From a virus, in the IMG/VR virus record IMGVR_UViG_3300027976_000057, positions 1 through 48,258 of that record: a DNA stretch of 48,258 nucleotides. One strand, written 5' to 3'. The stretch's first letter is position 1, and each line of letters begins with the position of its first letter. Both the position numbers and the translations under genes were made by a program. The notes beneath the pieces were generated by a model that was given only the letters and a program-made list of their open reading frames with translations, was not told the DNA's origin and made no database searches. This document shows, piece by piece, positions 6,117 to 9,155 of this stretch.

Positions 6117-9100
6117 TTGGCCACCAATAAAAATGATGCGTTATTTAGTCGTCTCGTGGACTTATTTCAAAACGGAGTAGGAGTCGCTCGTAAGACAAAA
6201 GGCGCTTTAGATCACAAGCCCGGATACAACCCTCGTTATATGGGCATCGCAGGAAGCTCTGGTGTTGGGCATTTCAAAAATCATTCTTTAAAGAAAAACA
6301 CAAGAAACACATTTAATCATGTAATGAACCCCCATGCCGCGCACCGCCAAAGTCGTTATCATGAATACGAGCAAATGGAGGAGACGGCTGAAATCCACAC
6401 AGCCTTAAATGTCATGGCCTCGGAAGTAACAGCCACAGACGAGAAAGGTAAATGTTTTCACATCCAAACTGACAACGAGCGTATTAAAGAACTTTTAAGC
6501 AATCTTTTTTATGATGTTTTGAACATTGAGTTCAATCTTTATTGGTATGTTCGTTCTTTATGCAAATTTGGCGACTTTACTCTTTACAACAGAATTGATC
6601 CAAAAAGAGGGATTGTTGGCGTAACTCCTATTCCGATCAATGAAATTGATCGTGAAGAAGATTTCAACCTAGACGAGCCACAAATGGTTCAATTCCATTG
6701 GGCTGCCAAAGGAGGAGAAGCTCTCCATGCGTTTCAAGTTACTCACATGCGCTTAAATGGCAATGAGTCGTTTCAGCCTTTTGGTACAAGTATTCTGGAG
6801 GGTGCTCGTAAAACTTGGAGACAGCTTTGCCATAAAAAAGGAACACTGGTTTTAACCACAACTGGTCCTAAAAAAATTGAATGTGTTTGTGTCGGAGATG
6901 TCGTGTTGTCGCATGACCCAGATACTAAAAAAACAATTCGTGCCAAAGTTAAACATGTTTTGCCGATGGGCAAACAAAAATTAGTCAGAGTAAAAACGCT
7001 TCATCGACAAATTGATGTAACTCCAAATCATGGACTTTTGGTTAAAACACCAAAAGGAGAACTTCATTACAAAAAAGCTTCCGAAATTATTTGCACAACT
7101 AATTACGGCGTTAACAAACATCGAAATGCAGAATGTCTAGTCCTCCCGGCTTTTAATGGCGGGATAAAACGACATTCGGTTGTACTTGAAAATTTAAATT
7201 TTCACACATCTTCGGATTTTATGAAATTGTTTGGGTTTATGCATGGAAATGGTTGGGTGAACAATTCTCATTGTGGATTTGCTCTTGGCGTAAATGACAA
7301 CCAAAATCAATTATATATTGATATTTTTGAAAATCTTTTTAAGAAAAAAATGAGAATTTCTCCAAAAAGATGCCTCAAAGGAGATCAGGCAAGCATCGAT
7401 TCAAAAGAAGCTAGTCTAATATTTAAGGCTTTCGGTTTTCAATCAGGTTTTGCTAACAAGCGTGTTCCTTCGTGGGTGTACGAGATGGATCGTAATCTGA
7501 TTATTGATTTCCTACAAGGATTTCATGGCGCAAATGGGTGCGAAAAAGATGAAAAATTTTCATTCTCTAGCCAAAAATTCTTAGAAGACGTGCAAGCTCT
7601 CTGTCATATAAGCGGGGTTACTTGTGGCTCTGAAATAAATTTGGACCGGAATAGAAATACTGAATTCAGTTCATATTTCAACAAAATAGTAACCACCCAA
7701 AATAGCTTTAGATTGTATGTTGATTTAACCAATATTTCTAATGAGCCAGTTCAATATGAACCCGTTATCAGCATTACTGAAATTGAGCCAGATGAAACGT
7801 ATGATCTAGAAGTAGATCACGAGCTTCACAATTTTGTAGCCAATGGCATTGTCACTCATAACACTTTGGCAGAAGATGCCATGTTGGTTTATCGCGTTGT
7901 ACGTTCGGCGGAACGTAGAGTTTTTTATGTAGACACCGCCAACGTCCCCGCTGCCGACGTGGGACCATTTTTGGAGCAAATGAGAAATGCTCTCCGCAGT
8001 AGTCAGGTTGTTGATCAAACATCTGGGCGGGTAGACTTACGTTACAATCCATTTAGCCAAGAAGAAGATTATTTCATTCCCGTTAGGGGATCGGACTCGG
8101 GCACTAAGATTGACACTCTTTCGGGCGGGGCTAACACCACCGCTACTGAGGACGTTGAGTACATCCAAAAGAAACTCTTCTCGGCTTTGCAAGTACCGAA
8201 AGCATTTTTGGGCTTCGATGATTCCCTCTCAAGCAAAGCAACTCTCGCCATCGAAGACGTTCGCTTCGCCAAGACTGTCGGGAACATCCAAAAAGTTGTT
8301 CTGGCTGAATTAAACAAACTCGCATATATCCATTTGTTCATTCATGGATTTGATGGAGAGGATCTCGTTAATTTCGATCTTCAATTATCGAATCCATCCA
8401 CGATCGCTCAACAGCAAAAACTTGAACTTTTGCGGACTCGTCTGGAAATTGTCAAAAACAATTATGATCCAGAAATGCGTATGTTAAGCCGGGAATATTT
8501 CCAGCGCAACATTCTTCAGATGAGCGAAGGAGAAATCGAAGAAGAGCGTACTCGCATTGAGTACGATAAAAAATTTGATGCCCGTATTGATGCAATCGAA
8601 CAGAAAGCTGCGCGCTCCGGTCCCTATTCAGATGGCTTTGATGGGAAGACTTATGGATACGGCGAAGATGGCAAAAAGACAGATGAATCTGACAAGGCAC
8701 CAGAAGAAAAGGCCCCTGCCGATCCTCTCTCAAATATCAAGAAACCATCTAAAGAGGAAGATGGCGAGGACGGCTTTATCAGGCCACCACAAAGCCCTGT
8801 GAAGCCGGAAGATCGTGTTGCCTATAATCGCAATCGTCGTCACACGCACGGCCCGATGGCGTTAGCCCAACCAGATTTTCGTTCTATGTTGAGTGTCAAA
8901 AATTCGTCACTCAAAGATATTTACGACAAAGACTTTCTCGGCATAGGAAATCCCTTCCGCGAAGGCAAAGAAATGGACATGGAAAATATTTTTGAACCCG
9001 ATGGGATGCCAATAAAGACAGTTTCGTCTCCAACAATCACAAAAGAAATTGAAATAATGTTAAAAACGATGGACGAGCATCTAAATATTTCTAGACAATG

Positions 9101-9155
9101 GTCATCTGTCAGCAGCAATTTGTTGGCAGAGGGTAACACCAAAGAAGAAGTTTGA
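6117..9155 (+). CDS. gp20: portal vertex protein (gp20-like) interrupted by an intein
   Basis: The 1012-residue precursor is a T4-type portal: residues 1-237 and 583-1012 form the 667-residue mature protein, and residues 238-582 are an intein. Portal features include the helical clip region before the insertion (EYEQMEETAEIHTALNV, about 82-98) and the conserved block LAEDAMLVYRVVRSAERR straight after it. The C-terminus is acidic and Pro/Lys-rich. The portal forms the dodecameric ring at the head vertex and is the DNA channel. Translation starts at TTG (6117), supported by AAGGAG 7 bases upstream and by the absence of any earlier ATG; the next Met is over 40 residues in. It is the first gene of the rightward head module. 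Confidence 0.93.
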   Translation: MATNKNDALFSRLVDLFQNGVGVARKTKGALDHKPGYNPRYMGIAGSSGVGHFKNHSLKKNTRNTFNHVMNPHAAHRQSRYHEYEQMEETAEIHTALNVMASEVTATDEKGKCFHIQTDNERIKELLSNLFYDVLNIEFNLYWYVRSLCKFGDFTLYNRIDPKRGIVGVTPIPINEIDREEDFNLDEPQMVQFHWAAKGGEALHAFQVTHMRLNGNESFQPFGTSILEGARKTWRQLCHKKGTLVLTTTGPKKIECVCVGDVVLSHDPDTKKTIRAKVKHVLPMGKQKLVRVKTLHRQIDVTPNHGLLVKTPKGELHYKKASEIICTTNYGVNKHRNAECLVLPAFNGGIKRHSVVLENLNFHTSSDFMKLFGFMHGNGWVNNSHCGFALGVNDNQNQLYIDIFENLFKKKMRISPKRCLKGDQASIDSKEASLIFKAFGFQSGFANKRVPSWVYEMDRNLIIDFLQGFHGANGCEKDEKFSFSSQKFLEDVQALCHISGVTCGSEINLDRNRNTEFSSYFNKIVTTQNSFRLYVDLTNISNEPVQYEPVISITEIEPDETYDLEVDHELHNFVANGIVTHNTLAEDAMLVYRVVRSAERRVFYVDTANVPAADVGPFLEQMRNALRSSQVVDQTSGRVDLRYNPFSQEEDYFIPVRGSDSGTKIDTLSGGANTTATEDVEYIQKKLFSALQVPKAFLGFDDSLSSKATLAIEDVRFAKTVGNIQKVVLAELNKLAYIHLFIHGFDGEDLVNFDLQLSNPSTIAQQQKLELLRTRLEIVKNNYDPEMRMLSREYFQRNILQMSEGEIEEERTRIEYDKKFDARIDAIEQKAARSGPYSDGFDGKTYGYGEDGKKTDESDKAPEEKAPADPLSNIKKPSKEEDGEDGFIRPPQSPVKPEDRVAYNRNRRHTHGPMALAQPDFRSMLSVKNSSLKDIYDKDFLGIGNPFREGKEMDMENIFEPDGMPIKTVSSPTITKEIEIMLKTMDEHLNISRQWSSVSSNLLAEGNTKEEV
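6828..7862 (+). other. intein (345 aa) in the portal protein, with a degenerate LAGLIDADG domain
   Basis: Splicing motifs are complete: Cys1 and the block A pattern (C..kGT.....G.kki..v.vGD.V), block B T65-P-N-H68, block F (YDLEVDHELHNF) and block G ending His-Asn, with Thr as the +1 residue of the C-extein. The mature junction RQL/TLAEDAM restores a normal portal sequence. The central region has two LAGLIDADG-like helices, LFGFMHGNG and LQGFHGANG, in which the catalytic acidic residue of each is Asn. Splicing should work, whereas homing cleavage probably does not. A 60-base sample in the intein (7201-7260) has 22 G/C against 32 in a portal sample (8221-8280), consistent with separate origin. 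Confidence 0.93.

Follow-up and report, generated by a model that had tools for sequence, protein, structure and literature searches.

Why does an intein stay in the portal gene of an uncultured T4-type phage when the endonuclease nested in it can probably no longer cut DNA? The question is raised by a 345-residue insert in a virus record of 48,258 bases (IMG/VR IMGVR_UViG_3300027976_000057), the whole of which was analysed and is called the window below. It is highly probable, in our judgement, that the insert is an intein at the portal position that we call site b, that it carries a probably dead endonuclease, and that it is inherited vertically at a decay stage of the homing cycle. Its features are collected in Table 1.

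The host gene is an open reading frame for 1012 residues on the forward strand (6117-9155), which begins with TTG and encodes a T4-type portal protein. The product matches the Pfam family Portal_T4 (PF07230, 1.4e-64) and the portal family of PHROG (6e-62). It is homologous to T4 gp20 and is encoded within a cluster of head genes, with genes for a prohead protease, a major head protein and further T4-type head components lying downstream. Upstream of the portal, the reverse strand carries a gene for a GroEL-type chaperonin (1266-2933; phrog_5725, 5.9e-145; Pfam Cpn60, 2.9e-63). The insert occupies residues 238-582 of the portal frame. Without it, a portal of 667 residues is left, reading RKTWRQL before the junction and TLAEDAM after it, and when this joined protein is aligned to the portal of Microcystis phage Mel-JY01, which has no intein, no gap opens at the junction. 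It also aligns to two intein-free IMG/VR portals (L005 and L006). The insert is thus in frame, and taking it out of the sequence leaves a conserved host protein intact. Searching IMG/VR with single sequences, either the whole portal or the intein alone, returned no matches, and alignments were required.

The splicing residues are complete and are those of a class 1 intein: Cys1, the block B motif TxxH (T65-P66-N67-H68), D326, and the terminal pair H344-N345 followed by Thr+1. The AlphaFold model of the intein (mean pLDDT 92.4, pTM 0.90) combines a Hint fold with a two-motif LAGLIDADG endonuclease. Judging from the conserved motifs and the fold, the intein is expected to splice, and it would excise itself after translation to give the 667-residue portal and a free intein of 345 residues. 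In an alignment to T4 gp20, the residues flanking site b correspond to 264 and 265. The stem of gp20 comprises residues 255-278 and 359-377 (PMC4493910), and site b falls inside stem helix alpha5. An unspliced precursor would be expected to disrupt the stem, so splicing would be effectively essential for the portal.

Table 1. Features of the portal gene and its intein in the window (positions in the window; residues numbered from Cys1 of the intein)
Feature	Position	Strand	Evidence or detail
N-extein of T4-type portal	6117..6827	+	237 aa, TTG start; Pfam PF07230, portal alignment
Intein, Cys1 to His344-Asn345	6828..7862	+	Pfam Intein_splicing (5.9e-15), extein junction, AlphaFold model
N-terminal segment of the Hint splicing domain (residues 1-107), with Cys1 of block A	6828..7148	+	
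Block B, T65-P66-N67-H68	7020..7031	+	H68 invariant in 42 portal inteins
23-residue linker replacing the ~100-residue subdomain of other long same-site alleles	7149..7217	+	Alignments, L086 model
LAGLIDADG endonuclease domain predicted to be inactive, residues 131-305	7218..7742	+	Catalytic columns, fold
First motif LFGFMHGNG, residues 134-142	7227..7253	+	N141 (AAT, 7248-7250) replaces catalytic Asp
K211, conserved block D lysine, retained	7458..7460	+	Alignment
Second motif LQGFHGANG, residues 229-237	7512..7538	+	N236 (AAT, 7533-7535) replaces catalytic Asp
C-terminal segment of the Hint domain, containing blocks F and G (D326, H344, N345)	7743..7862	+	Alignment, predicted fold
C-extein of portal, first residue Thr+1	7863..9155	+	Pfam, portal alignments

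No Pfam LAGLIDADG model matches the window intein itself, so the endonuclease is identified from alignments of relatives and from the predicted fold. In the model, two LAGLIDADG helices (residues 129-141 and 222-235) lie in a pseudo-symmetric endonuclease fold, with N141 and N236 at their C-terminal ends. The best PDB matches of the model are the HEN-bearing inteins TliVMA, PhoVMA, PI-SceI and PI-PfuI (E 8e-20 to 5e-13), and I-DmoI is also among the structural matches. Active LAGLIDADG enzymes close each motif with an acidic residue. At the columns where relatives carry GDG and DADG, the window intein has asparagine in both motifs. Of the 59 other long portal inteins collected, none carries Asn at the two columns and 53 carry Asp at each, although the loci L189-L225 in this set were collected with patterns including FGFM[LH]G[ND] and are biased toward intact first motifs; in the set collected without that bias, Asp/Asp is found in 26 of 32 relatives. 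The window intein is alone in being Asn/Asn. The codons of N141 and N236 are both AAT, and L086, the closest relative by its Hint domain, has GAT twice; the two G-to-A changes are known from a single metagenomic contig.

A deletion lies next to these substitutions. From the N-terminal part of the Hint domain to the first LAGLIDADG helix there are 23 residues in the window, versus 104-109 in the other long site b alleles measured (about 100 in later alignments), which means that about 80 residues have been deleted in frame. In the model of L086, an intact allele, the accessory region consists of strands and three short helices, and the region is present in L226 as well. Accessory domains at the equivalent junction are known in other HEN inteins, where they influence site recognition (PMC8966425), and the subdomain missing from the window is presumed to have recognised DNA. 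The nested endonuclease would formerly have spread the intein to portal genes that lacked it, and it has probably lost cutting through the replacement of both metal-binding Asp residues and the removal of the flanking subdomain. The first-pass annotation of this DNA had called a portal intein from Cys1, TPNH, His-Asn and Thr+1, had read the two motifs as LFGFMHGNG and LQGFHGANG, and had taken their asparagines as a sign of a dead nuclease. All of these motifs were found where it placed them, the alignment with relatives confirms the register of the catalytic positions, and death of the endonuclease is very likely because both catalytic Asp are Asn and the accessory subdomain is absent.

The mechanism is a known decay stage of inteins. 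The closest described case is PhoVMA of Pyrococcus horikoshii (PDB 7QST), which ranks second among the structural matches of the window intein. Both consist of a Hint domain and a LAGLIDADG domain from which the two active-site acidic residues are gone; PhoVMA was described as inactive, was classed as a degenerated homing-cycle stage, and gained cutting after active-site residues were grafted onto it (PMC8966425). PhoVMA resides in an archaeal V-ATPase, whereas the host here is a phage portal, and its second motif lost a helix turn, whereas in the window two point substitutions removed the Asp residues and the accessory subdomain was deleted. In the VMA inteins of yeasts, both Asp are present in the active endonucleases, and at least one of them is missing from nearly all inactive ones, with splicing retained (PMC1508164). 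Those inteins belong to nuclear yeast genes, and many strains were tested in vitro. Portal inteins (PORT) are also listed for mycobacteriophages of cluster C1, a different phage group (PMC5050341). The inteins of L086, L114, L226 and L002 share both the host gene and the insertion site and are recognisable relatives.

Site b holds 14 long alleles besides that of the window, some of which are shifted by one or two residues. Thirteen of them (L086, L089, L090, L186, L189, L190, L192, L194, L195, L198, L199, L213 and L226), and thus 13 of the 15 long alleles, have Asp at both catalytic columns. The remaining one, L114, has Asn/Ala and keeps the accessory region; the identity of the window intein to its relatives reaches 46%, with L114. 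A mini-intein of 141 residues lies at exactly site b in the huge-phage record LR756508.1 (L002), and the portals of Mel-JY01, L005 and L006 are intein-free at that point. L226 lies on a 158-kb contig (VFKM01000012.1) that was binned as a Flavobacteriales MAG and may come from a large phage. The homing-cycle model predicts such a mix of allele states (PMC8966425), and the array at site b is, as read from these sequences, a homing cycle of invasion, fixation, decay and loss. Since intact, degenerate, mini and empty alleles all occur there, the intein is dispensable in this portal gene family. The window intein would persist by vertical inheritance while it moves along the cycle toward a mini-intein, its removal being disfavoured since an inexact deletion would disrupt an essential gene.

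The dead domain has eroded little. Of the strongly conserved endonuclease columns, 27 of 36 are kept in the window and 31 of 36 in L114, and the intact alleles keep 26-36 of 37-40. The ratio of endonuclease to Hint branch length is 2.06 for the window and 0.77-2.36 for Asp/Asp alleles; a relative-rate test showed no acceleration in the window, and the net charge of the domain did not separate dead from intact alleles. Fourfold sites are close to saturation between the window and its relatives, which makes dN/dS unusable; between the endonuclease regions of the window and L114 they are saturated (0.23 identical, 0.28 expected by chance), yet 42% of the residues are identical. Prolonged neutral decay would have been expected to leave more erosion. 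As the dead domain shows no excess drift, either its death is recent or it is still constrained and may help splicing.

The second of these readings, in which cutting was lost but the endonuclease was kept as a splicing scaffold, is the best of the alternatives, and we consider it unlikely. A similar mutualism of Hint and HEN has been proposed for TliVMA and MvuTFIIB (PMC8966425). The identity that the two dead domains retain despite saturated fourfold sites, together with their surviving conserved columns, speaks for such a constraint. So does a tree of the endonuclease only, which joins the window with L114 (91/91) and needs one change at residue 141; N141 and H233 are common to the two. The tree of the portal extein, however, places L114 with L086 and L226 (100/98) and rejects a grouping of the window with L114 (AU p 0.005), and two recent independent losses fit equally well. 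It also counts against a scaffold that the window intein has lost about 80 residues of the insert, and that L002 is expected to splice with no endonuclease at all. A shared ancestral loss with L114 is backed by the endonuclease tree and contradicted by the portal tree. On these trees, one old loss followed by transfer of the intein and two separate losses are both possible. That a dead lineage marked by N141, as in L114, was passed between portal genes under constraint for splicing or another non-cutting role appears improbable, and more so than the scaffold.

It is very improbable that the endonuclease still cuts or nicks DNA with asparagine or nearby acidic residues standing in for Asp. The fold is intact in the model, the block D lysine, invariant among the aligned inteins, is kept, and Glu239 and Asp241 lie just after the second motif; but Asp/Asp is the state of 53 of 59 relatives, the accessory subdomain is gone, and inteins that lack these residues are inactive in the systems studied (PMC8966425, PMC1508164). 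Persistence had been ascribed in the first-pass annotation either to fixation, which fits the homing cycle, or to splicing having been co-opted to control how the portal assembles, which we find barely credible: its sole point is that an unspliced 345-residue insert in alpha5 would probably block formation of the portal ring, whereas related portals are empty, mini or endonuclease-intact at the same site, no regulatory feature or sign of conditional splicing was seen, and several sites of the portal gene have been invaded independently, as by a parasite.

A portal had also been thought an uncommon place for an intein, and this did not hold. Two scans yielded more than 50 T4-type portal inteins from uncultured viral contigs, in addition to the published mycobacteriophage ones (PMC5050341). 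They cluster in the stem helix, at its borders and in the tunnel loop. In T4 gp20 numbering, site a is near 251 and 252 (extrapolated just beyond the aligned stretch), sites c and c2 lie between 276 and 277 and between 278 and 279, at the border of stem and clip, and an intein of L002 is near 393 and 394, in the tunnel loop. In uncultured phages, T4-type portal genes stand out as hosts heavily invaded by inteins, at a frequency well above what had been assumed; the literature searched, with incomplete coverage, held no description of an intein hotspot in T4-type portals.

Several portal frames carry more than one intein. For example, IMGVR_UViG_3300033407_000015 (L109:4116-11549) encodes 2478 residues in a single T4-type portal frame; six stretches of it match Pfam Intein_splicing (1.2e-79), and the portal part amounts to only some 518 residues, near the length of T4 gp20. 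The maximum usually given for a single protein is about four inteins. Five intein regions are present in L114:2595-9692, four each in L213:2982-9899 and L130:3129-8684, and three in L002:1864-6024. In the latter phage (LR756508.1, 484 kb), the gene adjoining the portal (L002:1-1782) contains an intein as well, with the LAGLIDADG-like motifs LLGDG and IMGDG. Substitutions at the catalytic columns occur in other portal inteins (L095 D/N, L093 G/D, L120 R/C, L138 V/-, L139 E/F), and endonuclease decay has therefore occurred several times in the portal family.

Taken alone, the window intein is one more example of homing-cycle degeneration. Its site matters more widely: intact, dead, endonuclease-free and empty alleles are found at site b within one phage gene family, which makes the homing-cycle model directly testable, and the same series of alleles allows testing whether a dead endonuclease still supports splicing.
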